From contig JAAXQG010000139.1 of the NCBI GenBank assembly GCA_012974445.1, positions 1 to 43,925 on the forward strand: DNA of 43,925 bases, written 5' to 3'. Positions 14,284 to 42,348 of this stretch are shown here, piece by piece. Position 1 is the stretch's first letter. Every line of letters starts with the position of its first letter. Source of the DNA: Desulfuromonadales bacterium (GTDB lineage: Bacteria; Desulfobacterota; Desulfuromonadia; Desulfuromonadales; JAAXQG01). A program made the position numbers and the translations under genes. The notes under the pieces were generated by a model. The model saw only the letters and a list, made by a program, of their open reading frames with translations, was not told the origin of the DNA and ran no database searches.

Positions 14284-15768
14284 ATGGAAGAAAAAAACGA
14301 GATTCTCAGGCAACGCCGGGATAAGTTGAAGACGTTTCGCAGCGAAGGGATCAATCCCTTTGCCAACGATTTTCGCGTCAGCCATGGCTCGGGAGAGATC
14401 CTTTCCCAGTACGCCGAGGCGACCACCGAAGAACTTGAGCAGGTTGAAACCGTCTTTGCTGTGGCCGGTCGCATCATGGCGCGTCGTGATTTCGGCAAGG
14501 CCGCCTTCATTCAGCTTCAGGATCAGGCAGGGCGCCTTCAGGTTTACATTAATAAAGCATCTGTAGGTGATGAATCTTTCGAGCTTTTCCGGCGTGTCGA
14601 TATAGGGGATTTGGTCGGGGTGACCGGTCGTGCTTTCAGAACCAAAACCGGCGAGTTCTCTCTGCGGGCTGAGGGTTTTCGCCTGCTGACCAAGTCGGTT
14701 CTGCCTTTGCCGGAGAAGTGGCACGGTCTGACCGATGTAGAGACCCGTTATCGCCAGCGCTATCTGGATCTCATCGTTAATCAGGATGTGCGTGACGTCT
14801 TCGTCAAGCGCAGCCAGATCGTGAGCTGCCTTCGTGACTTCATGTCCCGTCAGGGTTTTCTCGAAGTCGAAACCCCTATGATGCAGCCCATTGCCGGCGG
14901 CGCTACGGCCCGCCCCTTCGTGACGCATCACAACAGCCTGAAGATGGATCTTTTTCTTCGCATCGCTCCCGAACTCTACCTCAAGCGTTTGGTGGTAGGG
15001 GGCTTTGACCGGGTATTTGAGATCAACCGGAACTTCCGCAACGAGGGAATTTCCATTCGTCACAATCCCGAGTTCACCATGATGGAGTTCTATCAGGCCT
15101 ATGCCACCTATGAGGACCTGATGGAGATGACCGAAGAGATGATCTGTGAGGTCGCCGAGAAGGTCTGTGGCTCCACTCAGATCAGCTACGGTGGTGAGCC
15201 CGTGGACCTTTCCCGCCCCTGGGATCGCCTCACGGTCAAGGAAGCCATCGTCAAGCACGGCGGCGTTGATGCGAAGGCCCTGGAGACCCGCGAGAGCCTG
15301 CTGGGGGTTGCCAAATCCCTGGGCGTCGCTGTGGATCCCAAGATGGGGCCCGGGAAGATGTTGATGGAGATTTTCGATTGCGTGGCCGAGCCCAAGCTCT
15401 GGAACCCGACCTTCATTACCGAGTACCCGACCGAGGTCTCCCCTCTGTCGCGCAAGAACGACGCTAATCCCGATGTAGTGGATCGCTTTGAGCTCTTTGT
15501 GGTCGGACGGGAGTTGGCCAATGCCTTCTCCGAGCTCAATGATCCCGAAGATCAGAGGGAGCGCTTTCTGGGTCAGTTGGCCGAAAAGGAAGCGGGGGAC
15601 GACGAGGCCCACGCCATGGACGAGGATTATATCCGCGCTCTGGAGTACGGCTTGCCCCCCACGGCAGGAGAGGGGATCGGCATCGATCGTCTTGTCATGC
15701 TGCTTACCGACTCCGCCTCTATCCGGGATGTCATTCTCTTTCCTCAGCTCAAGAAAGAGAGCCACTGA
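14284..15768 (+). CDS. lysS: lysyl-tRNA synthetase, class II
   Basis: LysS charges tRNA-Lys with lysine using ATP. The 494 residues are typical. An N-terminal OB-fold anticodon-binding domain (about 50-160) is followed by the class II catalytic core: motif 1 around FLEVETPMMQPIAGG, motif 2 FEINRNFRNEGISIRHNPEFT, and motif 3 GEGIGIDRLVMLL near the C-terminus. The ATG at 14284 has GAAAGG about 10 bases before it. It lies between prfB and lolC, 32 bases upstream of the latter. Confidence 0.98.
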   Translation: MEEKNEILRQRRDKLKTFRSEGINPFANDFRVSHGSGEILSQYAEATTEELEQVETVFAVAGRIMARRDFGKAAFIQLQDQAGRLQVYINKASVGDESFELFRRVDIGDLVGVTGRAFRTKTGEFSLRAEGFRLLTKSVLPLPEKWHGLTDVETRYRQRYLDLIVNQDVRDVFVKRSQIVSCLRDFMSRQGFLEVETPMMQPIAGGATARPFVTHHNSLKMDLFLRIAPELYLKRLVVGGFDRVFEINRNFRNEGISIRHNPEFTMMEFYQAYATYEDLMEMTEEMICEVAEKVCGSTQISYGGEPVDLSRPWDRLTVKEAIVKHGGVDAKALETRESLLGVAKSLGVAVDPKMGPGKMLMEIFDCVAEPKLWNPTFITEYPTEVSPLSRKNDANPDVVDRFELFVVGRELANAFSELNDPEDQRERFLGQLAEKEAGDDEAHAMDEDYIRALEYGLPPTAGEGIGIDRLVMLLTDSASIRDVILFPQLKKESH

Positions 15769-15800
15769 ACCGGTGTCACTTCTTCTAGTTGAGCGTTTGA

Positions 15801-17069
15801 ATGGACGGACTGCGCCTCATGGGCTATGAGCTTTTCGTCAGTCTGAGATACCTGCGGGCCAAGCGCAAGCAGACCTTCATCTCGGTGATCTCCTTCATCT
15901 CCATTGCGGGGGTGACGCTGGGGGTCGCTGCGCTCATCGTCGTGCTGGCGGTGATGACCGGTTTTCATGACGGGGTGCGCAAGCAGATTCTTGGGAACAT
16001 TCCCCATGTGTTGATTCAGCACTATGGGGGGGGGATGGCCGAGCCTCAGTCTGTGATCGATGTTGCCTCCGCCACGCCTAACGTGCTGAGCGCTCAGCCT
16101 TTTGTCTCGCGTGAAGCGATGCTGCTGGCCCAGGGCAATGTGTCCGCAGTCAGTGTCAAGGGAGTCGCTGAGGGCAACAAGGTCTTCAACCAGGAGTTTC
16201 TCACCCTGGGTGGCCGACCGGTTCAGGAGTACTTCTTCGAGCCCAAAGAGGGGCTGCCCGGTATCGCCATCGCCATGGATACGGCCACAACTCTCGGAGT
16301 GGCCGTGGGGGACCGCATCAATGTCATCCCGCCGGAGTTCAACGTGACCCCCTTCGGGGTGATTCCCAAGATGAAGCCCTTCGAGGTCGTGGGTATCACC
16401 ACGGCCGGCAGCGGTATCGTCGATGCGTTCTATGCCTATATCTCCCTTGAGCAGGCCCAGCTATTTCTCGGCACCGAAGGGATGGTGACCGGGGTCGAGG
16501 TCGAGGTTGACCACTTCGACCATGTGGCTGAGGTCACGGAGTTGTTGCGGGAAAAGCTTCCCTTCCCCCTGTCGGTACGCTCCTGGGAGGATCTCTTCGG
16601 TTCCTTTCTTTCGGCGCTGAAGCTGGAGAAACTGGGACTCTTTATCGTTCTGACCATTATTATTCTGGTGGCGGCTTTCAATATCGCCACCACTCTGATC
16701 ATGGTGGTGATGGAGAAAAGCAAGGATATCGCGGTGCTTCGATCCATGGGGGCAACTTCCCGCAGTATCACCCGTATTTTCATGCTTGAGGGACTTATTA
16801 TCGGATCCATGGGCACGCTGCTCGGCACTGCCCTCGGTGTTGGCATCGCCACCCATGCCGATGCGATTATCAAGGCTCTGGAGGGGATCTTTAAAATCAA
16901 GATTTTCGAAAAGAGCGTCTACGGCATGGATAGTTTTCCTTCGGTGGTGCATGGTTCCGATGTGCTCGCCGTGGCTCTGGTGGCCATGGGGATTTCGCTC
17001 TTTGCCACCCTGTATCCGGCCTGGCGCGCTTCGCGCATGGATCCCGCCGAAGCGCTGCGTTATGGATAA
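15801..17069 (+). CDS. lolC: lipoprotein-releasing ABC permease LolC/E
   Basis: LolCDE extracts mature lipoproteins from the inner membrane and hands them to LolA. The 422-residue protein has the family architecture: a membrane helix near residues 26-50 (FISVISFISIAGVTLGVAALIVVLAVMTGF region), a periplasmic MacB-like domain, and three C-terminal helices, ending DPAEALRYG. Only one permease gene is present, so the complex may be a homodimer of one LolC/E type (LolF-like), as inferred for many non-enteric bacteria. The ATG at 15801 is used; ATG 15819 is an alternative. lolD begins 10 bases after its stop. Confidence 0.93.
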   Translation: MDGLRLMGYELFVSLRYLRAKRKQTFISVISFISIAGVTLGVAALIVVLAVMTGFHDGVRKQILGNIPHVLIQHYGGGMAEPQSVIDVASATPNVLSAQPFVSREAMLLAQGNVSAVSVKGVAEGNKVFNQEFLTLGGRPVQEYFFEPKEGLPGIAIAMDTATTLGVAVGDRINVIPPEFNVTPFGVIPKMKPFEVVGITTAGSGIVDAFYAYISLEQAQLFLGTEGMVTGVEVEVDHFDHVAEVTELLREKLPFPLSVRSWEDLFGSFLSALKLEKLGLFIVLTIIILVAAFNIATTLIMVVMEKSKDIAVLRSMGATSRSITRIFMLEGLIIGSMGTLLGTALGVGIATHADAIIKALEGIFKIKIFEKSVYGMDSFPSVVHGSDVLAVALVAMGISLFATLYPAWRASRMDPAEALRYG

Positions 17070-30995: not shown

Positions 30996-31171
30996 TCAGC
31001 TCTGACCTTCTGGAAATTCTGGCCTGCCCCAAATGCAAGGGCCCGATTCGCTTCGATGAGTCTCAAGGCGAGGGGCATATCCTCTGCGAGGCCTGCCGTC
31101 TCTCCTATCCTGTGCGCGACGGTATCCCCGTCATGCTGGTCGACGAAGCAACAGAGTTCGCCTCCAAGTGA
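30992..31171 (+). CDS. Trm112-family zinc-ribbon protein
   Basis: This 59-residue protein begins [19 protein letters not shown] and has four cysteines in CPKC and CEAC, the pattern of the Trm112/YcaR family. YcaR sits between lpxK and kdsB in E. coli, so the association with lpxK is a conserved one. The ATG overlaps the lpxK stop and the TGA overlaps the GTG of waaF (GTGA), so it is translated as part of the operon. Bacterial members have no settled function; a role as small stabilising partner of a methyltransferase is known for eukaryotic Trm112. Confidence 0.9.
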
Positions 31172-32214
31172 GTCCCGCCCCTTTCTTCTCTCCGGCTCGA
31201 GACCGTAAAATCATGGTTCGCCTCACCAACTGGATCGGTGATGCGGTGATGAATACACCGGCGCTGGGGGCCGTACGCCACAGCTACCCCGAGGCCGAAA
31301 TCGTCCTGGTGGCCAACCCCCTTGTCGCCAAGCTTTTTGCGTCTCACCCCTACTGCGACCGGGTGCTGGTTTTCGACAAAAGGGGTGCCCACAGCGGCAT
31401 CGGCGGTTTCCTGCGCTTCTGTCGTCTGCTTCGAGCCGAGCGCTTCGATGCGGCCATCCTGCTGCAGAAGGCCTTTGAGGCTGCGCTCATGTCCGCTCTT
31501 GCCCTTATCCCCCGGCGTCTCGGCTATGCCACCGACGCGCGGGCTGCGCTGCTAAGTCACTCAATGCCTCTCACCGATGAGGTGCGCTGCCAGCATCATA
31601 CAGAACACTATCTGCATCTGCTGCGCAGCTTCGGCATCGAGGGGGGCGACGGGCAGCAGCGCCTGGAGGTGACGCAGGAGGAGTACGCCTGGGCGAAGGC
31701 TCAGTTGGGAGAGGGTATTTGGTTCGCCATCAATCCCGGCGCCGCTTACGGCTCGGCCAAACGCTGGATCCCCGAGCGCTTCGCCGCCGTCGCTGATGAG
31801 CTTGCAGAGCGTTTCGGCGCTCGCATTCTGCTCACCGGAGGGCCGGCCGAGACGGAGATCGGATCTGATATTGCCGGAGCGATGAAGGTAGAGCCGCTTA
31901 ATTTTATCGGCAAAACAAGCGTACGTGAGATGATGGCCTTGCTGTCGCGCTGCTCCCTGGTGGTCAGCAACGATTCCGGCCCCATGCATGTGGCCGCAGC
32001 CCTGGGGATTCCCATCGTGGCTATCTTCGGCCCCACCGATCACACCACCACCCACCCCTTGAGCCAGATGCACCGCATCGTGCGCAAGCCGCTGCACTGC
32101 GCCCCCTGCCTCAAGCGGGTCTGTCCCACGGATCACCGCTGTATGGAAGCGGTAACCGCAGCAGAGGTTGTCGAAGCCGCGCGCGAACTGCTTGGCGAGG
32201 CACAAATCCCTTGA
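31168..32214 (+). CDS. waaF: ADP-heptose:LPS heptosyltransferase II
   Basis: WaaF (GT9) adds the second heptose of the inner core. The 348-residue protein has [17 protein letters not shown] at residues 17-33, the family start, and ISN-type donor-site text [26 protein letters not shown] in the C-terminal domain. The segment [16 protein letters not shown] is typical of WaaF. The start is GTG at 31168. A second GT9 gene (39415) may encode heptosyltransferase I, and gmhA for ADP-heptose synthesis lies at 42509. Confidence 0.93.
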
Positions 32215-33296
32215 AGCCTAAATCGGTCTGTTTTTTCAACAGCTCCCGGTCCTGGGGGGGAGGAGAGAAATGGCACTGCGACATGTCGCAACGCCTTGCT
32301 CGGTCGGGATGCCGCGTTTCCCTCGTTACCAAAGTGAACAGCGAACTATACCTTCGCGCTCAAAAAGCGGGCACCGATGTTCAGGGCGTTCAGGTCTCCA
32401 ATCTCAGTTTTCTGAACCCCTGGAAGCTCCTGCTGCTTTTTGTCTGGTTCCGGCGCAGTCGTTTTGATGCAGTTATTCTGAATCTGCCCGCGGATCTGAA
32501 GGTCGGAGGATTGGCGGCTAAGCTGGCCGGAGTTCCTAAAATTATCTACCGACGGGGAAGCGCTACCCCCGTAAAAGACAGTTTGTTCAACCGGTTTCTC
32601 CTTCGTAGAGTGGTAACGGAACTCATTGCCAATTCCGCTGAGACCGGCAGAACCATCCTGGCCTCCAATCCGGAACTGGTCGATCCGGGTAAAATTACTG
32701 TGATTTACAACGGAATTGACCTGGATGAATACGACCGACGCCCCTTTTCTCTTCTCTACGAAAAACAGGAGGGAGAAATAGTGCTGGGCTGCGCCGGTCG
32801 CCTTTCCTGGGAGAAAAACCAGAAGTTTATTGTCGAGGTCGCCGCTCTGCTTCGGAACCGGGGCTTGAAATTCAAGCTGCTTATCGCTGGGACGGGAAAG
32901 CTGGAGTCCGAGTTGAGGGCCCAGGTTAAATCTCTGGACCTGGAACAGCATGTACTTTTTTTGGGATTTGTGGAAAATATCAAGGCCTTCATGGAGTCGG
33001 TGGATATTTTCCTTCTGTCTTCAGTCTATGAAGGATTCGGATACGTCCTAGTCGAGGCGATGGCTTCATCTCGGCCGGTGGTTGCCTTCAGTTCGAGCAG
33101 CACCCCTGAAATAGTCGTCGACGGGAAAACCGGCTATCTTGCGGGCAAGGACAACAAGGAGGCCTTCGCCGAAAGAATACTTGAGCTCTCAAGAGAACCG
33201 TCATTGGCGCAATGTTTTGGTACATCGGGAAGGGAACGCGTCTGTGAGATGTTTGAAATGGAGGTTTCCGTAAGGAAGCTGGTATCGCTTATCTAG
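32211..33296 (+). CDS. GT-B glycosyltransferase (GT4 family)
   Basis: The 361-residue protein has an N-terminal acceptor domain starting VCFFNSSRSWGGGEKW and a C-terminal Rossmann domain with GCAGRLSWEKNQKFIVEV, LLIAGTGKLESELR and the E-x7-E motif in SSVYEGFGYVLVEAMASSRPVV, all typical of retaining GT4 enzymes. It starts at TTG 32211, overlapping the waaF stop. Its role is probably adding a sugar to the LPS core. Donor and acceptor cannot be told. It appears AT-richer than its neighbours by eye and ends the long plus-strand series; no clear terminator follows. Confidence 0.9.
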   Translation: MKPKSVCFFNSSRSWGGGEKWHCDMSQRLARSGCRVSLVTKVNSELYLRAQKAGTDVQGVQVSNLSFLNPWKLLLLFVWFRRSRFDAVILNLPADLKVGGLAAKLAGVPKIIYRRGSATPVKDSLFNRFLLRRVVTELIANSAETGRTILASNPELVDPGKITVIYNGIDLDEYDRRPFSLLYEKQEGEIVLGCAGRLSWEKNQKFIVEVAALLRNRGLKFKLLIAGTGKLESELRAQVKSLDLEQHVLFLGFVENIKAFMESVDIFLLSSVYEGFGYVLVEAMASSRPVVAFSSSSTPEIVVDGKTGYLAGKDNKEAFAERILELSREPSLAQCFGTSGRERVCEMFEMEVSVRKLVSLI

Positions 33297-33532
33297 CGGA
33301 TCGTCATGGGGAAATTGTGTCTGCACTTACTAATGTCAAGAGTCAGTTGAGTCGAACGCTTGCCTCCTTGCTGTTTCTTATGTTTTTACTCTTTCCTTTT
33401 AAAGTCCGGTAATATCGACCATTGATACTGGACCAGTCGGCTATTTATTTCTCTCACGACCCTCACGCGATGTTGGCACAAACCTGTTGATATCGTAATG
33501 TTTTCTGCTTACCTGATATTGGATGTGCTTCC
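33297..33532. other. AT-rich intergenic gap
   Basis: These 236 bases separate the lipid A/core series from the surface-glycan cassette. The DNA is AT-richer than the genes around it. No open frame with a ribosome site, tRNA or strong hairpin was seen. A candidate promoter lies at its right end. The change in composition marks a likely border of a variable region. Confidence 0.5.
33473..33501 (+). promoter_or_regulatory. candidate promoter of the glycan cassette
   Basis: TTGGCA (33473-33478), 17 bases, TAATGT (33496-33501). The leader to the ATG at 33533 would be about 25 bases. Confidence 0.35.
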
Positions 33533-33925
33533 ATGAAGAAACTGGTCATTGACCTGGACGGAACTCTCACCATTGAGACTCCAGGACCCTACCCGGAGAA
33601 GCTCCCGAACCTGCCGCTGATTCAAAAACTCCATGAATACAAACAGCTAGGTTACCAGATCACGATTTTCACGGCGCGTAACATGCGAACCTACGAGGGG
33701 AATGTGGGGATGATTAACGTCCACACCCTGCCCATCGTGCTGGAGTGGCTCGAACGGCACGAGGTGCCATTCGACGAGGTGCTGGTGGGGAAACCCTGGT
33801 GCGGAACTGAGGGGTTCTACGTTGACGACCGGGCCGTGCGCCCCAGCGAGTTCGCCAAAGCCACCCCCGAAGAGATCGCGGCGTTAATCGCCGCAGAGTC
33901 GTCCTGCCTTAAGTCGGGGATCTGA
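33533..33925 (+). CDS. small HAD phosphatase, capsule-biosynthesis type
   Basis: The 130-residue protein is a compact HAD hydrolase. The nucleophile/acid pair is Asp7 and Asp9 in VIDLDGTLT, motif II is the Thr in IFTARNMRTYEGN, and the C-terminal VGKPWCGTEGFYVDDRAVRP holds the motif III lysine and motif IV aspartates. Members of this group are annotated as capsular biosynthesis phosphatases and occur in capsule loci. Without a cap domain it should act on a sizeable or exposed phosphate ester. Only one base separates it from the next gene, so it is the first member of a four-gene unit. Confidence 0.88.
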   Translation: MKKLVIDLDGTLTIETPGPYPEKLPNLPLIQKLHEYKQLGYQITIFTARNMRTYEGNVGMINVHTLPIVLEWLERHEVPFDEVLVGKPWCGTEGFYVDDRAVRPSEFAKATPEEIAALIAAESSCLKSGI

Positions 33926-33926
33926 C

Positions 33927-35522
33927 GTGTTTCTGATCACGTCCGGCGCCTACATCGATCAGGAGTTCGTGAGCGAAATCGGTCTGCTGCCGCCCAGCTT
34001 CCTCCCCGTGGGCAACCGCTGCCTCTTTGAGCACCAGATCGCCTTGGCTTCTCAAGCCTCTGAGAAGGTCTGTCTCTCGGTGCCGGAGTCGTACCAGCTC
34101 AACGCCTATGCCCGGAACTATCTCGAAGAGTGCGGCGTCGAGCTGATCCCTGTGCCCGAGGGGTTGCGGTTGGGCGAATCGATTCTCTACTGCCTCAACA
34201 TGACGGAAAGCGCCGAGGGCACCCTTCGTATTCTTCATGGCGACACTCTCTTTGCCAACCTCAGCGAGGCGCTTGATGAAATCAGTCTCTCCCCTAACAC
34301 GGGTTACTATAGTCGGGCGGCACTGAACGAGGCCGAGGGTGACGATGATCTCCTGATCGAGAAGATGGCCGTTGACGACGACGTGGTGGTCAGCGGCTAC
34401 TTCAGCTTTTCCTGTGTGCGCACCCTCATCCGCAACCTTACCCGCTGCCAGGGGCGGTTTATTCAGGCACTCAACGGCTACCACCGCGAGAAACCGCTTG
34501 CCCCCCTGCTCAAGAGCGACTGGTACGACTTCGGGCATTTGAATTCCTACTTCGCCTCCCGCGCCGATTTCACCACCGAACGCAGTTTCAACGCACTGGA
34601 GATCTCTCGTCATCTCGTGCGCAAGGAGAGCTCGAAGATCGAGAAAATGCGCGGGGAGGCCCGCTGGTTCAGTGAACTGCCCGCCCCGGTGCAGCTCTAC
34701 ACCCCGAAACTGCTTGAGGTCTTCGAGGAGGAGGGGCGCGCCGGGTACAGCCTCGAGTACGTTTATAATCTCCCCTTGAGTGACCTCTTTGTCTTCGGCC
34801 GTCTCGCCAAGGAGACCTGGCGGAGCATCTTCCGCTCCTGTGATGACTTCATGCGGCTTTGCCGCGCGAGCCTTCCCCGAGAGAGCCCGCCCGACCCTGC
34901 GTCCCTCAACGCCCTCTATCTTCCCAAGACGCTTGCGCGTCTCGATGAGTTTGCCGTCACCAGCGGTTTTTCCGTGGACGAGCCAATCCGGTTTAACGGG
35001 ATAGCTTGTCCCTCGCCCCGGGAGCTTGCCCGATTCAGCAGTAAACGCATCGCCTCCGTGACGCAGGAGGAGATCGCCATTGTTCATGGGGATTTCTGCT
35101 TCAGCAACATTCTCTACGACTTCCGTACCCGGCGCATCAAGGTGGTGGATCCTCGGGGGGTCGACCTTCAGGGCGCCCCCACGCTCTTCGGGGACCGGCG
35201 CTATGACTACGCCAAGCTCTATCACTCGGTCTACGGTCTCTACGACCTCATCGTCGCCGGGCGCCTCAAGGCCCAGCGAAACGGGGAGGGGAGGGAGTTG
35301 GCCATGGAGGATCTGCGTTTCGACTACCACCAGGGAATCCGTAGTGCCTTCGAGGAGCTGTTCTTCCGGGATCAGCCGCAGCTGCTGAGAGCGGTGCGGG
35401 CCATCAACGTCCAGCTCTTTCTCTCCATGCTGCCGCTGCACGCCGACCGACCGGACCGGCAGTTCACTATGCTGGCCAACGCTTATCGACTCTATCTGGA
35501 AATGGAAGGGGTTGCTTCATGA
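33927..35522 (+). CDS. fusion: nucleotidyltransferase-like domain + APH/choline-kinase-like domain
   Basis: The 531-residue protein seems to have two parts. Residues about 1-240 look like a sugar-nucleotidyltransferase fold, with LPPSFLPVGNRCLFEHQI resembling the LPKPLLPVxxxPLIEHQI signature and LRILHGDTLF resembling the metal-binding strand. The usual glycine-rich GxGTR loop is absent (ITSGAYIDQEFVSEIG), so this half may be inactive or altered. Residues about 240-531 look like an aminoglycoside/choline kinase: Brenner motif HGDFCFSN (His387, Asp389, Asn394) and DPRG at Asp408. The start is GTG at 33927, with GGGG 7 bases before. ATGA overlap couples it to the next gene. A kinase next to a nucleotidyltransferase recalls LicA/LicC, which activate choline, but the substrate here is unknown. 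Confidence 0.75.
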   Translation: MFLITSGAYIDQEFVSEIGLLPPSFLPVGNRCLFEHQIALASQASEKVCLSVPESYQLNAYARNYLEECGVELIPVPEGLRLGESILYCLNMTESAEGTLRILHGDTLFANLSEALDEISLSPNTGYYSRAALNEAEGDDDLLIEKMAVDDDVVVSGYFSFSCVRTLIRNLTRCQGRFIQALNGYHREKPLAPLLKSDWYDFGHLNSYFASRADFTTERSFNALEISRHLVRKESSKIEKMRGEARWFSELPAPVQLYTPKLLEVFEEEGRAGYSLEYVYNLPLSDLFVFGRLAKETWRSIFRSCDDFMRLCRASLPRESPPDPASLNALYLPKTLARLDEFAVTSGFSVDEPIRFNGIACPSPRELARFSSKRIASVTQEEIAIVHGDFCFSNILYDFRTRRIKVVDPRGVDLQGAPTLFGDRRYDYAKLYHSVYGLYDLIVAGRLKAQRNGEGRELAMEDLRFDYHQGIRSAFEELFFRDQPQLLRAVRAINVQLFLSMLPLHADRPDRQFTMLANAYRLYLEMEGVAS

Positions 35523-36238
35523 TCGTCATACCCATGGCGGGGCTCTCGTCCCGCTTTTTTAAGGCGGGCTACAGCCAGCCGAAATACATGCTCGAAGCCA
35601 AGGGGAAGACACTCTTCGCCCACTCGGTGGGAAGCTTCTCCCGCTACTTCGACAGCGATCCCTTTTTGTTCATCGTACGACCCGAGTACGACACCCCCGA
35701 ATTCGTTCGGCGCGAGGCCAGGCTCCTCGGTATCCGGCGGTTCGAGATCGTCGAGCTCCAGGAGTCCACCCGTGGCCAGGCCGAGACCGTTGACCTGGCT
35801 CTCGACGGCTGCGCCAGCAACGAGCCGCTCTACATCTTCAACATCGACACCTTCCGTCCCGGCTACCGCAAACCCGATTTCTGCGACATGGCCGACGGCT
35901 ATCTCGAGACCTTCATCGGGACTGGGAAGAACTGGAGCAACATCGAACCCGCCGCTCCCGGGTCGGACAGGGTGATCCGCACCGCCGAGAAACAGGAGAT
36001 TTCCTCCTACTGCTGCACGGGGCTCTACCACTGGAGGAGCGCCGAGCGCTACCGCTACTACTACGAGCAGTACAAATGCCTCGACGCTACGGAGCTCCAT
36101 GCAGGGGAGCTCTACGTCGCCCCCATGTACAACCTGGCCATCGCCAAGGGCGACGACATCCGCTTCTCGGTGATCGAGCCCGAGGAGGTCATTTTCTGCG
36201 GTACGCCCGACGAGTACCGGGACTATTTGGAGCGTTGA
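35519..36238 (+). CDS. NTP-transferase family nucleotidyltransferase
   Basis: The 239-residue protein starts IVIPMAGLSSRFFKAGYSQPKYML, a clear nucleotidyltransferase signature with the glycine-serine-arginine loop (8-12) and Lys22. YIFNIDTFRPGY near residue 108 should hold the metal-binding Asp. Such enzymes join a phosphorylated small molecule or sugar 1-phosphate to a nucleotide. It overlaps the upstream fusion protein by 4 bases and is followed after 4 bases by the WavE gene. This is the catalytically complete nucleotidyltransferase of the unit. The type of nucleotide and substrate cannot be told. Confidence 0.88.
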   Translation: MIVIPMAGLSSRFFKAGYSQPKYMLEAKGKTLFAHSVGSFSRYFDSDPFLFIVRPEYDTPEFVRREARLLGIRRFEIVELQESTRGQAETVDLALDGCASNEPLYIFNIDTFRPGYRKPDFCDMADGYLETFIGTGKNWSNIEPAAPGSDRVIRTAEKQEISSYCCTGLYHWRSAERYRYYYEQYKCLDATELHAGELYVAPMYNLAIAKGDDIRFSVIEPEEVIFCGTPDEYRDYLER

Positions 36239-36242
36239 ACCG

Positions 36243-37247
36243 ATGATCAACAACCAAGATATCACGGTGGTGGTGCAGGGGCCGGTGCAGGCCCTGGCTG
36301 ACCGCCCCATGGACGAGGGAATCACCTTCCGCAGTCTTCAGAGCATTCGGCGTTTTCTCCCCGGCGCCCGCATCATCCTCTCCACCTGGCCGGACCAGAA
36401 ACTTGAGGGACTCGAGTACGATGAGCTGGTTCTTTGCGAGGACCCCGGACCGAACATCTACCGGTACGATCCCGACGGCACCCCCTACAAGCTCAACAAC
36501 AACCGCCAGATTGTCACCTCCCGCGAAGGTCTCAGGCACGTTACGACCCGCTACGCCATGAAGCTGCGCTCCGACAACTTCCTGGTGGGCGACCAGTTCA
36601 AGGCGCTGCAGCAGCGTTTTCCCAGGCGCCACCCGGAGTACGCCTTTTTCAAGGAGCGGGTGGTGGTCAACAACACCTTCACCCGGGAGTACGCCAAGGG
36701 GATGCCCGTGGTCTTCCACGCCTGCGACTTCTTCTACTTCGGGCTCACGCAGGACGTGCTGGCCCTCTGGGACCTGCCGCTGTTCGAGGACGTCCCCTAC
36801 GATCCGGCCCGGGCGGGGAAGCCCCAGGGACTAGGCAACCCCTATTTCCCGCCGGACTGCACCCAGAAATTCTGGCTCGCCGCCCTGCAACGATTTGATC
36901 CGGAGATCCACATCGATCATTTGCACCACTACTCGCCAGCCCTCAAGCGCCTGAGTGACCTCTGCTACGTCAACAATTTGGTGATTGGCGACTCCGACAC
37001 TATCGGACTCGGGCTCAACAGCAAGTTCACCGGTAAGGAGCGGGCAAACCGCCTGAGCGGCCACATCACCTACATGAGTTATCACGGCTGGCAGCGCCTG
37101 TACCGTCGATATTGCGATGCCTCGCTGGTCATTGAGAAAAATCGATCTGACTTGCTCAAGCAGATCCTCCTGCGGGCCTGCATGCTTCCGGGAAAGTATG
37201 TTGAGGGGAAAATGCGCCTGCGCAAGTGGGTGAAGCGGCACGGCTGA
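36243..37247 (+). CDS. WavE-family LPS biosynthesis protein
   Basis: The 334-residue protein begins ITVVVQGPVQAL and continues TFRSLQSIRRFLPGARIILSTWPDQ, matching the WavE family (PF07507) named for a gene of the Vibrio cholerae core oligosaccharide locus. The DPGPNIYRYD and RYAMKLRSDNFLVGD segments suggest a glycosyltransferase-like GT-A fold with a DxD-like position. A helical basic C-terminus could bind membrane or LPS. It closes the four-gene unit and probably transfers the group activated by the enzymes before it. The precise reaction of WavE proteins is not established to my knowledge. Confidence 0.85.
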   Translation: MINNQDITVVVQGPVQALADRPMDEGITFRSLQSIRRFLPGARIILSTWPDQKLEGLEYDELVLCEDPGPNIYRYDPDGTPYKLNNNRQIVTSREGLRHVTTRYAMKLRSDNFLVGDQFKALQQRFPRRHPEYAFFKERVVVNNTFTREYAKGMPVVFHACDFFYFGLTQDVLALWDLPLFEDVPYDPARAGKPQGLGNPYFPPDCTQKFWLAALQRFDPEIHIDHLHHYSPALKRLSDLCYVNNLVIGDSDTIGLGLNSKFTGKERANRLSGHITYMSYHGWQRLYRRYCDASLVIEKNRSDLLKQILLRACMLPGKYVEGKMRLRKWVKRHG

Positions 37248-37380
37248 CTCTCGCTCTGTATCTTCCGCACCGCCGAGCGGATGCAATCGAATTTCCCGGG
37301 ACAGGGAACGGAGCAATCCCTTCCGATAGCATGTTTTTCACTCAGATAGAAACAAGCTGTAAGCAACAGTGGGAGAAATT

Positions 37381-38649
37381 TTGTCAGTACTTACCGGTGT
37401 TAAAACTCAGCTGTTGAGCCGTCCGCTCGTCACCCTCTTGCTGCTCATGGCTTTTATCTTTCCTTTGGGCATGCCGAGTCTTAAGAGCTGGTCCAGCTCT
37501 CTGGTGCACTTGTTCATTTTCATTGGTCTGCTGAGTTGCCGGAAGCAGTGGCAGTTCTTAACCAGAGCCGAAAAACGCCTGTTTCTATGCCTCGGCCTTT
37601 TTTTCCTACTTTGTTCCATGAGCCTCCTGAACGCCGATGACCTCTCTTACGGCATCAAGCGATTGGGCAAATTGGTTCTTTTCCTCGGTTTTATTCCAGC
37701 CTACCTTGGACTCTGCCGTGCTCGCATCTCTCTTGTACGCCCCTTGATGTATGGTCTGCTCGCTGCAGGCCCCATAAATCTGGGCCTTGCTCTTTATTCC
37801 ATGAGGGTCTGGGGGCGCTCTCAGGCAAGTTGGAATTATAACTCCATTGTCTTCGGTGACCTGTGTATGTTTTTGGCGATCGCCGCCGGCTGTCTTTTTT
37901 TTACTAGAGCTCTTCCGCGGCGTTTTAATCCACTGATTCTGGGTTCGCTGCTCTGTTCCCTCTGTGCCTGCGCCCTGTCCGGATCTCGTGGGGCCTGGAT
38001 CCTGTTGCCGATAATCCTGCTTTTTTTTCTCTGGCTGTTCAGAAAACAGATCTCCATCAGGCATGTTGCCCTGTTTATGGTTTTGATTGTGGTGTTTGGC
38101 GCAGCGGTTTTTGCTCTAGGGGGCAAGACGATTACGTCGAGAGTTTCCACCGCCTATCATGAAGTCCTGAACTTTCAGGCTGGCCAGAGCACGGGTGGAT
38201 CAGCCGGGCAGCGTCTTGAGATGTGGAGGATCAGCCTGGATATTTGGAGTCGTAACCCTGTTTTAGGCTCCGGCATCGGAGATTTCCGTCACGATGTTAT
38301 CGATCTTAGGGGAGATGGAGAGGCCCTGTTGGTGGGAGATTTCAGCCATGCCCACAGCATCTATTTCGAATATCTCTCTATGACAGGAATTTTGGGCTTT
38401 TTCTCCATGCTGCTGGCCGTGCTGGTTCTGCCTTTTAGATACTTCTATGGTCACTGGCTAAGTTGCACGGACTCCGAGCAACGCTTCGCTGCCCTGGCAG
38501 GAATGACGCTTGTCGTTTCATTTGCCGTCTTTGGCTTGACCGAGAGTTGGCTCTCAAGATCACCCTTTGTCTCCCCCTATGTCCTGAGTCTGCTCATCCT
38601 GATGTCCGGTTGTTCCGGTAGGAGTATTTCATGTCCCGACCCCGACTGA
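37381..38649 (+). CDS. waaL: O-antigen ligase/polymerase family membrane protein
   Basis: The roughly 422-residue protein has about ten to twelve membrane helices and a large periplasmic loop (about 260-330) with a Wzy_C domain, including GQRLEMWRISLDIWSRNPVLGSGIGDFRHD and the histidine-containing DFSHAHSIYFEYLSMTGILG. WaaL joins O-antigen to the core on the outer face of the inner membrane. This family also contains Wzy polymerases, and the two cannot be separated safely by sequence alone; its place among core genes favours ligase. The TTG at 37381 has GGGAG 5 bases before it; GTG 37369 is an alternative. The last 19 bases overlap the next gene. The 120-base gap upstream shows no clear promoter. 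Confidence 0.85.
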   Translation: MSVLTGVKTQLLSRPLVTLLLLMAFIFPLGMPSLKSWSSSLVHLFIFIGLLSCRKQWQFLTRAEKRLFLCLGLFFLLCSMSLLNADDLSYGIKRLGKLVLFLGFIPAYLGLCRARISLVRPLMYGLLAAGPINLGLALYSMRVWGRSQASWNYNSIVFGDLCMFLAIAAGCLFFTRALPRRFNPLILGSLLCSLCACALSGSRGAWILLPIILLFFLWLFRKQISIRHVALFMVLIVVFGAAVFALGGKTITSRVSTAYHEVLNFQAGQSTGGSAGQRLEMWRISLDIWSRNPVLGSGIGDFRHDVIDLRGDGEALLVGDFSHAHSIYFEYLSMTGILGFFSMLLAVLVLPFRYFYGHWLSCTDSEQRFAALAGMTLVVSFAVFGLTESWLSRSPFVSPYVLSLLILMSGCSGRSISCPDPD

Positions 38650-39404
38650 GCGTTGCGCTGATCACCAAAAACGAGAACGACAACATCAAGGCCTGCCTGG
38701 AATCGGTGGCCTGGGCCGACGAGATCGTCATTTCCGATTCCGGAAGCACCGACGACACCCTGGAGATCGCGGCGCGTTTCACCGACCGGATATTCATCGA
38801 CAGGGACTGGCAGGGGTTTGGCATCCAGCGCCAGAGAGCTCAGAGCAGGGCCACGGGGGACTGGGTTCTGTTCATCGATGCCGACGAGCGGGTCACTCCG
38901 GAGCTCAAGGAAGAGATTCTGGGGGTGCTGGAGCAGGATGACCGCGGGAGCATCTACGCCCTGTCCAGGCTCTCCTGGTGCTTCGGCGACTTTATCAGGC
39001 ATAGCGGCTGGTATCCCGACTATGTCGACCGGCTCTTTCCCCGGGACAAGGCGGCCTACAACGATGCTCTGGTGCACGAAAAGCTTGTCTATCCCTCCAG
39101 CATGACCCGCGCAAGGCTCAATGGGGAATTGCTGCACTTCACCTTCCGGGATTTGGAACACTGGGTCGGCAAGACGGGAACCTATGCCGCCGCCTGGGCG
39201 AAACAGAGGGAGCTCAAGGGCAAGACGTCCTCCCTGACCAAGGCGATCCTTCACGCGCTGGCCGGTTTTTTCAGGGCCTATGTGCTTCGCAGGGGGTTTC
39301 TCGATGGGAGGCAGGGTCTGTTGCTGGCCATTCTTGGGGCCTATTCCAAGTTTCTGAAATATTCTGATCTCTGGCTGCGCTCGCAGCCCAAGGCTCCGAG
39401 GTAG
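38631..39404 (+). CDS. family 2 glycosyltransferase, WaaE/KdtX-like
   Basis: The 257-residue GT-A enzyme has LSVALITKNENDNIKACLESV at the N-terminus, DEIVISDSGSTDDT, the metal motif WVLFIDADERVTPEL and WYPDYVDRLFPRDKAAYNDALVHEKL. This last block is typical of the WaaE/KdtX group, which adds beta-1,4-glucose to heptose I of the inner core in enterics. TAGGAG precedes the ATG by 6 bases. The protein end has a short amphipathic helix that could anchor it to the membrane. It converges on the minus-strand heptosyltransferase with only 10 bases between. Confidence 0.9.
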   Translation: MSRPRLSVALITKNENDNIKACLESVAWADEIVISDSGSTDDTLEIAARFTDRIFIDRDWQGFGIQRQRAQSRATGDWVLFIDADERVTPELKEEILGVLEQDDRGSIYALSRLSWCFGDFIRHSGWYPDYVDRLFPRDKAAYNDALVHEKLVYPSSMTRARLNGELLHFTFRDLEHWVGKTGTYAAAWAKQRELKGKTSSLTKAILHALAGFFRAYVLRRGFLDGRQGLLLAILGAYSKFLKYSDLWLRSQPKAPR

Positions 39405-39414
39405 GGGAGGGGCT

Positions 39415-40476
39415 TCAGGCGGTGCCCATAACCAGATCAAGTTTCTCTCGCACATCCTTGACGCTTATCAGCGACATCACCTCGGGATCGCGAACCCGCT
39501 GTCCCCAGCGGACATCCTTGACCCTCTTTCCGCACTCTTTCATCAGCGCTTCCGGATAACGGTTCACTGTGCTGTTCTGGCAGAGATATGGACCGGTGCG
39601 CAAGGGGTTGGAGCTGGCGTAGAGGCCGATGACCGGCGTCCCGGCTGCGTTGGCCATGTGGGCGGGGCCGGTGTCCGGGGCAATGAGGGCACTGGAGAGG
39701 TGTAGTAGGGCCATGAGCTCTTTAAGCGAGGTTTTTCCCACCAGGTCGATGGGCGCGGCGGAGGCGGCAGCGCAGATTTGGGCGGCGTATTCGCGCTCCA
39801 TGGCGTTGGGGCCGCCGGTCAGGACGCACTGCATCCCGTAAGTCTGTGCCGCATAGTCGATGATGGCGCCGTAGGACTCCACGCTCCAGTTACGCCAGTT
39901 GCGCGCCCGGTTGCTGGAGCAGGCGTTTATGGCCAGAACGGGTTTGTCCATCGGGATCAGGGCCTTCATGTTCGCCATCGCCTCTTCGGGGAGGGGGATG
40001 TCCCAGCTGATGACCGGTTGCGTCATTCCTAGTGCTCGGGGAAACTCCAGGAAGCTGTCCAGAACATGCTGTCTTTCGATGGCGGCGATTCTATTGTTGG
40101 TAAAGAGCCATTGCAAACCCCTTGCCCGGGCTTTATCATAGCCGAGTTTTATGGGGGCTTTGACGGCCAGGCATGCCAGGCTACCGCGCAGTGAGGCCTG
40201 AAGGTTCAGCAGCAGATCGAAGCGGCGCCCCCTGAGTTGTTCTCTCAGGTCCCGGTGCGCCCGGGCTCCTCTGGACTTGTCGAAGACGATGAACTCGACG
40301 CCCTGAATATCTCCCACCAGTGTGGCTTCGGTCTTGCCGATGATCCAGCTGATGCGGGTTTGGGGCCAGTATTTCTGCAGCGTCCTCAGCATGGGGAGCA
40401 CATGGGTTACGTCACCGATGGCCGAGAGGCGCAGGATGCAAATATTTTCTGGATGGGTGGAGAAATTCAATGACAT
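39415..40476 (-). CDS. family 9 (heptosyltransferase-type) glycosyltransferase
   Basis: The 353-residue GT9 protein begins ICILRLSAIGDVTHVLPMLRTL, then FDLLLNLQASLRGSL, and holds APDTGPAHMANAAGTPVIGLYASSNPLRTGPY, the donor-binding signature. This matches the RfaF/WaaC superfamily; the ICILRLSAIGD start is closer to WaaC-type heptosyltransferase I or to WaaQ-like enzymes. It stands alone on the minus strand. Its start codon overlaps the start codon of the divergent Kdo kinase gene, so its promoter must lie inside that gene. Confidence 0.9.
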   Translation of the reverse strand: MSLNFSTHPENICILRLSAIGDVTHVLPMLRTLQKYWPQTRISWIIGKTEATLVGDIQGVEFIVFDKSRGARAHRDLREQLRGRRFDLLLNLQASLRGSLACLAVKAPIKLGYDKARARGLQWLFTNNRIAAIERQHVLDSFLEFPRALGMTQPVISWDIPLPEEAMANMKALIPMDKPVLAINACSSNRARNWRNWSVESYGAIIDYAAQTYGMQCVLTGGPNAMEREYAAQICAAASAAPIDLVGKTSLKELMALLHLSSALIAPDTGPAHMANAAGTPVIGLYASSNPLRTGPYLCQNSTVNRYPEALMKECGKRVKDVRWGQRVRDPEVMSLISVKDVREKLDLVMGTA

Positions 40477-41222
40477 CAGGTATCTATCCCAAGACTGTTA
40501 AGGTTGGATATGATCATGTGCTGTTCGATTCGAGCCTGCTCGAAACTGGGCTGACGGAAATTTTCGACCCCGAGCTGTTAGAGGCCCGGGGGCAAATTGT
40601 CGGTCGGGCCGGTGGACGTGGGGAAGCCTATTTTCTTAAGTGCAATGGTCACCATTGGGTGCTGAGGCATTATCTTCGGGGCGGTTTCATCGCCCGGTTC
40701 CTTCACGACCAGTATCTTGGCTTCGATGTCACCAGGACCCGTGCCTGGAAAGAGTGGTACCTGCTTGCGGATCTCTACGCCCGGGGCTTTGCGGTTCCGC
40801 GCCCCGTTGCCGCGCGGGTCCGAAAGCAAGGGATGCTTTACCGCGCGGATCTGATCACCCGGTGTATCGAAGGTTCCCGTCCCCTGGCGAGCCTGCTGGA
40901 GGAGGTGCCTGTTTCTGGCCGGCTCTGGAGCGACGTGGGCGCTTGCATCCGGGTCTTTCACGAGGCGGGCGTCTATCACGCCGATCTGAACGCTAACAAT
41001 ATCCTGATCGATGAGAAGCACCATGTCTATCTCATCGATTTCGACCGGGGTGAGATCCGGAAACCCGGCACCTGGGCCGCAGCAAATCTGGGCCGCCTGG
41101 AGCGTTCTTTCAGGAAGCTTAAGGGGCTCAAAAGCCCCTTTCACTTCGACGAGGCCTGCTGGGCGCTGCTGCTCGGAGGTTACGAGGGGGCAGCGCAGGA
41201 ACCCGGGACCAGCTCCCGGTAG
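40470..41222 (+). CDS. kdkA: Kdo kinase KdkA (WaaP-like)
   Basis: KdkA phosphorylates the 4-position of Kdo in inner cores that have a single Kdo, as known in Haemophilus. The 250-residue protein has the kinase-fold motifs: YHADLNANNILID with catalytic Asp172 and Asn177, and the metal-binding LIDFDRGEIRKPG around Asp190. WVLRHYLRGG is characteristic of the family. GGAG lies 7 bases before the ATG. The ATG overlaps the start of the opposite gene by seven bases, and its 3' end overlaps the minus-strand gene that follows by 43 bases. A single-Kdo, phosphorylated core is therefore likely. Confidence 0.9.
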   Translation: MTSGIYPKTVKVGYDHVLFDSSLLETGLTEIFDPELLEARGQIVGRAGGRGEAYFLKCNGHHWVLRHYLRGGFIARFLHDQYLGFDVTRTRAWKEWYLLADLYARGFAVPRPVAARVRKQGMLYRADLITRCIEGSRPLASLLEEVPVSGRLWSDVGACIRVFHEAGVYHADLNANNILIDEKHHVYLIDFDRGEIRKPGTWAAANLGRLERSFRKLKGLKSPFHFDEACWALLLGGYEGAAQEPGTSSR

Positions 41223-42280
41223 AGGGCCAGCGTTTTCTCCATGGTGCTTTCCACCCGGAAGGCCGTACCGATGCGCTTTTTAGCCTCCATCCCCATCATT
41301 GCCAGCATCTCAGGATCCATCTGCAGTGCCATGATCGCCTCGGCGATGGGGCGCGCCTCACCCGAGGGTACGATCAGCCCGTTTTTGCCCTGCTCGATGA
41401 GCTCGGGGCTTCCCCCGGAGTCGGTCACTATGGCCGGCGTGCCGTAGGCCATGGATTCGATGACCACCTTAGGCAGTCCTTCGCGCTTGATGGCGGGGAG
41501 CACCGAGACGTCGCAGGCGGCCATGAGGGCCGGGGCGTCGGTGCGGTAACCGGTCAGGTGGATGCGATCGCGCCAGGGGCTCTGGGCGATCTGCTGCTGA
41601 AGCTTCTCGTTGTCCATGTTCCCCACAAGCAGGAAATGGACCGGGGCATCGATGGGCAGATGGCGGGCCGCCTCGATGAGCACATCGATCCCCTTGCGTG
41701 GGCGGATGTTGGCGATGCAGCCCACCGTGAACGCATCTTCGGGAATGCCGAACTGGGTCAGGTCGCCGGGCTGATCCTGGTACCAGGAGAGGTCGTGCCC
41801 CTTGTGAATCGTACGGACCTTGTTCGGATCCATTCGCATCCAGAGGCAGCGCATGTCCAGGAAGTATTTTCGAATGGCCTCGGCTACGCAGACGATGCGA
41901 TCCACCCGGGGGTGCAGGTAGGTGCCCCAGGATGCCGGATCCAGATAACTGACGTTTCCTACGATGCCCCGATAGCAGATGATCTTCAGGTCAATGCCGC
42001 GGGCCGCGCGGATTCCGTTGGCCGCCGCCTTGTTGTTGTAGAGGTGCAGGATATCGTAGTTGTTTTCCTGCAGTCGTTCGCGGATCGCCGCGGTTCCCTT
42101 CTTGTCATGACGCCCCTTCAGGGCCATGGCTGTCACCGGCACCCCGGCATCGCGCAGGCGCTGAATATGGGGGGCCTCGGGGTGGCAGATGACCTCGAGA
42201 TCGACTCCGGCGGCTCTCAGACTGATGAAGGTCTCGGCTTCGGGGCGGTCGCTGTGGGATGTGATGCAGAGTACTCGCAT
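41180..42280 (-). CDS. GT4-family glycosyltransferase
   Basis: The protein (366 residues from ATG 42280, or up to 379 from ATG 42319) starts MRVLCITSHSDRPEAETF. It shows the GT4 marks VGCIANIRPRKGIDVLIEAARHL, FLLVGNMDNEKL and the E-x7-E motif in REGLPKVVIESMAYGTPAIVTDSGG. A strong minus-strand promoter at 42349-42377 serves it, giving a single-gene unit. It probably adds a core sugar. Donor and acceptor are not identifiable. No start has a convincing ribosome site, so the N-terminus is uncertain. Confidence 0.9.
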   Translation of the reverse strand: MRVLCITSHSDRPEAETFISLRAAGVDLEVICHPEAPHIQRLRDAGVPVTAMALKGRHDKKGTAAIRERLQENNYDILHLYNNKAAANGIRAARGIDLKIICYRGIVGNVSYLDPASWGTYLHPRVDRIVCVAEAIRKYFLDMRCLWMRMDPNKVRTIHKGHDLSWYQDQPGDLTQFGIPEDAFTVGCIANIRPRKGIDVLIEAARHLPIDAPVHFLLVGNMDNEKLQQQIAQSPWRDRIHLTGYRTDAPALMAACDVSVLPAIKREGLPKVVIESMAYGTPAIVTDSGGSPELIEQGKNGLIVPSGEARPIAEAIMALQMDPEMLAMMGMEAKKRIGTAFRVESTMEKTLALYRELVPGSCAAPS

Positions 42281-42348
42281 TTTCACCATGGCAAGGGTCC
42301 GATTCAGGGGGAAAGGCATGTCAGGAAATAGGCTAAAAAACCCGAAAG

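Follow-up and report, generated by a model that had tools for sequence, protein, structure and literature searches.

A phosphatase, kinase-fusion and nucleotidyltransferase cassette in a Desulfuromonadales LPS-core locus as a candidate source of activated fructose for surface glycans

Fructose is found in the K4 capsule of Escherichia coli and also in other K antigens, and the core lipopolysaccharide (LPS) of Vibrio cholerae contains D-fructose. To our knowledge, it is not settled how this sugar is activated for bacterial surface polysaccharides. K4 is a chondroitin whose glucuronic acid is branched with fructofuranose (PMC7429809, citing Rodriguez 1988), and kfoE has been called and used as a fructosyltransferase gene (PMC7925653, PMC7429809). 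In V. cholerae, VC0231 and VC0229 are reported to take part in the adsorption of phage VP3 (PMC10458087). Genes related to both sets form a cassette at positions 33533-37247 of contig JAAXQG010000139.1 (assembly GCA_012974445.1) of a Desulfuromonadales bacterium, of which the whole stretch of 43,925 nucleotides was analysed and is called the window. The cassette encodes a HAD phosphatase, a protein in which a nucleotidyltransferase (NTase)-like domain is joined to an APH-type kinase (the fusion), a second NTase and a WavE-family protein. On balance, it appears probable that they make a nucleotide-activated, C2-linked fructofuranose, which WavE attaches to the LPS core.

The operon has matches in 127 of 5426 complete E. 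coli genomes. In one of the E. coli loci (L093), the HAD, fusion and NTase genes lie beside the gene for a 686-amino-acid glycosyltransferase, chondroitin synthase (PDB 2z86), and the locus is that of the K4 capsule. The kfoE-deletion primers of PMC7429809 have two 50-base arms that match L093 at 14322-14371 and 15941-15990 with 0 mismatches, the exact borders of the fusion open reading frame (ORF) at 14372-15940. Since these primers flank exactly the fusion gene, the loss of fructose reported for delta-kfoE strains is the loss of the fusion, the ortholog of 33927-35522 in the window. Furthermore, kfoC, kfoA and kfoF are enough for another E. coli to make chondroitin that lacks fructose (PMC7925653), so that the cassette is left over for fructose. 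The window and K4 proteins are 56% (HAD), 37% (fusion) and 47% (NTase) identical; for the fusion, this holds over 98% of the window protein, the operon order is the same, and a hidden Markov model of the family gives the K4 protein 681 bits. The window fusion can be classed as a member of the KfoE family, homologous over its full length. Between the chondroitin synthase and HAD genes of K4 lies the gene for a 477-amino-acid protein without Pfam family (L093:12517-13950), relatives of which adjoin the cassette in two other loci (L028, L078). By position this protein is probably KfoD, and it is a candidate for the true K4 fructosyltransferase; a relationship to WavE was rejected (hhalign probability 0.1).

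A second E. coli locus extends the comparison. In the group 2 locus of an O15 strain of sequence type 69 (L096), the cassette is accompanied by a Glyphos_transf polymerase and an acyltransferase, genes that fit K52, which we take to be a galactosyl-phosphate antigen bearing fructose and acyl groups. In a tree of the fusion, in which the deep branches are weak, the K4 protein stands with those of Vibrio, that of L096 on the side of the window; because the two lie on different sides, fructose is likely the common substrate. The first-pass annotation of this DNA had left the substrate unknown. By way of the kfoE primer match, fructose can be put in its place, with a strong case for the cassette as such, and from there we infer the same for the window organism.

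The Vibrio LPS core provides a second link. In V. mimicus, published primers for VC0231 fall in the fusion gene and those for VC0229 in the WavE gene, with 0-1 mismatches as opposed to 4-8 for shuffled primers, which identifies VC0231 as the fusion ortholog and VC0229 as the WavE ortholog. The reported part of both in VP3 adsorption places fusion and WavE in one surface pathway. In V. mimicus, HAD, fusion, NTase and WavE genes follow each other in the same order as in the window, between waaA and kdkA. At this type of site, two other Vibrionaceae genomes (G943, G1019) have WavE accompanied by an NTase and a kinase that stands alone. In the annotated one of the two loci (L136:2150-5044), these are a distant NTase (348 amino acids) and an APH/choline-kinase-like kinase (290 amino acids), with no HAD gene, and the other (L137:2229-5129) has ORFs of the same sizes; neither the alternative kinase nor the NTase of L136 had a match when searched against the PDB. 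This suggests that L136 and L137 carry an alternative activation module and that the phosphatase is dispensable.

The four ORFs of the window are intact and all on the plus strand, with spacings of +1, -4 and +4 bases, as the first-pass annotation had read them. It had also regarded them as a single functional unit that dephosphorylates, phosphorylates and nucleotide-activates a group and transfers it to a surface glycan, a view that is supported by co-occurrence and by conserved gene order. The window NTase and PDB 4evw were aligned, and a scan of a collection with this alignment yielded 80 loci, mostly of Gammaproteobacteria. The fusion is present in 80 of these 80 and the HAD gene in 78, in the order HAD-fusion-NTase, and the commonest arrangement overlaps (HAD-fusion -10 bases in 54 loci, fusion-NTase -4 in 58). 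An unseeded sample comprised 247 Vibrionaceae species, picked irrespective of the cassette; it was taken at the family level instead of a whole-class sample for the HAD family, which gave 2 of 369 genomes, too few for use. Forty of the 247 have the HAD gene, those very 40 have the fusion, and 39 of these the NTase; in the sole cassette genome without it, the fusion gene carries a stop. WavE occurs in 36 of the 40 cassette-bearing genomes versus 3 of the 207 others (Fisher p 5e-47 for HAD with fusion, 3e-35 for cassette with WavE). Such a survey had been proposed along with the annotation, and the case in which the genes never co-occur is excluded by both samples. The four genes are no chance set but a widespread, previously unassigned one.

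However, "four-gene" describes the unit only in part: the genes do belong together, but they comprise a donor-making operon of three genes and an exchangeable transferase, which in the window is WavE. This follows because WavE lies within about 8 kilobases of the cassette in 51 of the 80 seeded loci, while several loci without it resemble capsule, exopolysaccharide or O-antigen loci, and others (L077, L029 and the E. coli locus L098) have a distant WavE relative adjoining the cassette (hhalign probability 94-95). The operon stays constant while polymers and transferases vary among loci, as is expected of genes that make a donor. No mutase, epimerase, dehydratase or other sugar-modifying gene travels with the cassette in the loci compared. 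In an E. coli O20/O137 O-antigen locus (L094:14001-16713), the cassette opens the locus directly after galF, and in a plasmid-borne capsule locus of an O25b ST131 (sequence type 131) isolate of E. coli (L095:10309-14744) it is found with CDP-glycerol-type and Stealth-type genes (CDP, cytidine diphosphate). Two cassette-adjacent proteins (L096:9603-12092 and L095:10309-11997) share a weak DUF7796 match and possibly represent a further transferase family.

Three of the enzymatic parts, namely the phosphatase, the kinase domain and the second NTase, all retain their catalytic motifs. The HAD protein matches TIGR01689 (EcbF-BcbF) over its full length with 184.2 bits, against a curated cut-off of 162, and PDB 1xpj with E 8.6e-54; its motifs DLDGT (residue 7), TARNMRT (47), GKPWCG (86) and VDDRA (97) are conserved in 76 sequences. 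The second NTase has AGLSSRF (7-13), PK (21-22), FNIDTF (107-112) and AEK, and its G8, S10, R12, K22 and D110 are invariant in 53 sequences, so that nucleotide loop, catalytic lysine and metal aspartate are all present. With E 2.3e-82 and 58% identity over the aligned residues of 4evw, it is close to that protein, which is itself 98% identical to the NTase of the V. mimicus LPS-core cluster. Distant homologs (26-32%) of this NTase occur in Synechococcus phages (e.g., MH629685 71615-72316), some of them annotated as phosphatases or HAD hydrolases.

By sequence, the fusion gives a weak APH match alone (PF01636, 0.0032) and is missed by most family libraries; 31 of 69 homologs match APH at E <= 0.001. 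Matches to tetratricopeptide repeats in a PDB profile search (E 5e-17) were discarded, as they consist of many weak repeats in one 37-residue stretch. In the structural model (mean predicted local distance difference test, pLDDT, 94.2), an NTase fold precedes that of an APH kinase. In the kinase domain, K233, E244, HGDxxxxN (387-394) and DPRG (408-411) are found, and K233, E244, H387, G388, D389, N394 and D408 are invariant across the 69 homologs, as befits an APH-type kinase. The N-terminal domain lacks the GxGxR...PK nucleotide loop of an active sugar-phosphate NTase: in an alignment of 77 sequences, the GxSSR loop and the catalytic lysine are replaced by a conserved 'sEfG..PP.fLPlGn', with Pro23 at the position of Lys22 of the active NTase (profile comparison of the two gave a probability of just 8, and the alignment serves for residue positions only). 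The fused degenerate domain that had been proposed at first is borne out by the NTase fold of the model and the lost loop and lysine; it probably serves for binding or has a structural role.

These features bear on what KfoE does. Could the fusion be the fructosyltransferase itself, with transfer carried out by the N-terminal domain, whose NTase-like fold is akin to GT-A? The published label and use of kfoE would fit, as would the acidic residues of GDTL (105) and DFGH (201), which this domain retains. However, in structure this domain is best matched by NTases such as MurU and RmlA rather than by glycosyltransferases, and the C-terminal APH kinase domain has its catalytic residues complete, so that the label "fructosyltransferase" fits the model poorly. 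Furthermore, acceptors differ among loci and the companion transferases vary while the fusion is conserved, and the deletion phenotype is equally consistent with an enzyme that makes the donor. A transferase role for KfoE therefore seems quite unlikely.

A resemblance to choline activation by LicA and LicC had been noted in the first-pass annotation, and CDP-choline is indeed likewise made by a kinase and an NTase; the structural matches of the fusion N-terminal domain include LicC, at rank 33. Choline, ethanolamine or glycerol would then be transferred as a phosphodiester. Yet no LicD-type phosphotransferase was found among the cassette and flanking proteins scanned (32211-42319), the fusion is weakly APH with no match to the choline-kinase family (PF01633), and the second NTase profile has 4evw as its sole PDB match at E <= 0.01, LicC (1jyl) not being matched. 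The WavE protein (PF07507, 312 bits against a curated cut-off of 27) models as a GT-A-fold glycosyltransferase rather than a phosphodiester transferase (pLDDT 93.6; Foldseek matches to GT-A transferases, E 4e-5, template-modelling score about 0.3). Finally, K4 carries fructose, not choline, and the K4 ortholog is needed for it. The likeness does not hold, and activation of the LicA/LicC kind is highly improbable.

For fructose, a short pathway can be proposed. It would start from fructose-6-phosphate or fructose, and the kinase domain of the fusion would phosphorylate the anomeric C2 hydroxyl. The HAD enzyme may strip the 6-phosphate after C2 phosphorylation, like GmhB in the pathway to ADP (adenosine diphosphate)-heptose, or before it; the second NTase would couple fructose-2-phosphate to a nucleotide, and WavE would transfer fructose onto the LPS core, a step taken by other transferases in other loci. 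The economical route would run from fructose-6-phosphate via fructose-2,6-bisphosphate and fructose-2-phosphate to nucleoside diphosphate (NDP)-fructose, with the phosphatase-first order as the alternative. The C2 position, the order of steps, NDP-fructose as product and WavE as fructosyltransferase are all presumed. The lack of an accompanying mutase, epimerase or dehydratase suggests a substrate close to a central metabolite. We know of no mutase route from a ketose to its anomeric phosphate; for such a sugar, a kinase and a phosphatase would be economical, as in ADP-heptose synthesis. Literature searches (CDP-fructose, wav cluster, EcbF/BcbF phosphatase) returned nothing on this pathway, and an earlier description may exist elsewhere. 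Arguments are evenly balanced as to whether NDP-2-fructofuranose, made with the help of an anomeric ketose kinase that carries a dead NTase domain, a HAD phosphatase and a second NTase, is the general fructosyl donor of bacteria for capsules, O-antigens and LPS cores alike, with KfoE a mislabelled kinase.

Several points weigh against these proposals. KfoE itself is reportedly a fructosyltransferase, as the title of Liu 2014 has it, and no HAD gene lies beside WavE in G943. An E. coli O78 O-antigen locus (L097:7693-13623, from the enterotoxigenic strain H10407) has WavE, the complete cassette and three further glycosyltransferases, and the O78 repeat is not known to contain fructose; it may be acid-labile there, lost on acid release and so overlooked. 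The capsule of Campylobacter jejuni HS1 carries fructose, and the passage of PMC7901785 on it names no cassette. Either another route operates in HS1, or the statement on a general fructosyl donor is too broad. Moreover, the window fusion is merely 37% identical to KfoE and stands elsewhere in the tree, so that the substrate may have shifted: the same chemistry could serve another ketose or furanose (sedoheptulose, ribulose, ribose) or another C6 sugar. In favour of fructose, the K4 (fructose-type) and K52-like loci lie on different sides of the tree, the active-site residues are invariant across the 69 homologs, and no sugar-modifying gene accompanies the cassette; a different substrate in the window is regarded as unlikely.

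The flanking genes are listed in Table 1; those upstream of the cassette (31168-33296) can be assigned to an LPS-core context. The genes lysS-lolC-bamA-lpxD-msbA-waaA also stand in a run on this contig, and the waaA among them shares 43-55% identity with the waaA of other genomes in the order. The closest homologs of the fusion (63%), NTase (75%) and WavE (77%) are in Motiliproteus; in a profile search, the fusion was not found in 117 relatives, and a 297-genome sample of the phylum gave only weak matches elsewhere. Together with the draft state of the genome (329 contigs), this could mean that the contig is misbinned and the cassette gammaproteobacterial, which would leave its function unaffected. 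The waaA gene and the run on the same contig speak against this, and misbinning is considered very unlikely; horizontal gain of the LPS-core block fits better and would be the simplest reading.

Table 1. Features of the cassette and its flanks (positions in the window)
Feature	Position	Strand	Remarks
HAD phosphatase, EcbF/BcbF family (TIGR01689)	33533-33925	+	130 amino acids
NTase-like/APH-kinase fusion	33927-35522	+	531 amino acids, GTG start; ortholog of KfoE (E. coli K4) and of VC0231 (V. cholerae)
Fusion, N-terminal domain, degenerate NTase fold	33927-34571	+	about residues 1-215
Fusion, C-terminal domain, APH-type kinase	34572-35519	+	
Second NTase, active-looking	35519-36238	+	239 amino acids
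WavE-family protein, GT-A fold by model	36243-37247	+	334 amino acids; proposed fructosyltransferase, VC0229 ortholog
Flank: heptosyltransferase-type gene	31168-32214	+	from own sequence plus its matches in other core loci
Flank: GT4 glycosyltransferase	32211-33296	+	
Flank: O-antigen ligase-type protein	37369-38649	+	
Flank: GT2	38631-39404	+	
Flank: heptosyltransferase	39415-40476	-	
Flank: Kdo kinase	40470-41222	+	

A conserved operon tied to fructose makes the question of its activation directly testable, and it offers a candidate donor pathway for the engineering of chondroitin strains. The published role of kfoE is called into question. It can also be predicted that acid-labile fructose has been overlooked in E. 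coli O78 and in many Shewanella, Photobacterium and Marinobacter cores.

Compared with known systems, the cassette combines familiar elements in a different manner. In the synthesis of CDP-6-D-fructose by C. jejuni HS:5, a nucleotide is likewise joined to a fructose phosphate, but the linkage is at C6, is made in one step from fructose-6-phosphate and is followed by reduction to glucitol; the product is not a fructosyl donor, and neither kinase nor phosphatase takes part (PMC10918830). E. coli K4 (orf-kfoE-orf) shares with the window the three-gene order HAD-fusion-NTase, but there the 477-amino-acid protein precedes the HAD gene in place of WavE, and the product is a capsule rather than an LPS core. 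The Vibrio wav LPS-core cluster has the same genes and WavE in the same order; in the window, unlike in Vibrio, waaF-type and GT4 genes come before the cassette and a ligase-type gene and a GT2 after it, and the host lies outside the Gammaproteobacteria. The logic of an anomeric kinase, a HAD phosphatase and an NTase is common to the activation of ADP- or GDP (guanosine diphosphate)-heptose (HldE or HddA-GmhB-HddC). The kinases of those pathways have a PfkB or GHMP fold, unrelated to APH, whereas the cassette has an APH kinase with a pseudo-NTase fused to it, and the proposed substrate is a ketose, for which no isomerase would be needed. In the AmgK-MurU pair of N-acetylmuramate recycling, an APH-type anomeric kinase does work together with an NTase, and MurU is one of the top structural matches of the fusion N-terminal domain; there the two enzymes are separate, while the window has a degenerate NTase domain fused to the kinase and a second NTase in addition.

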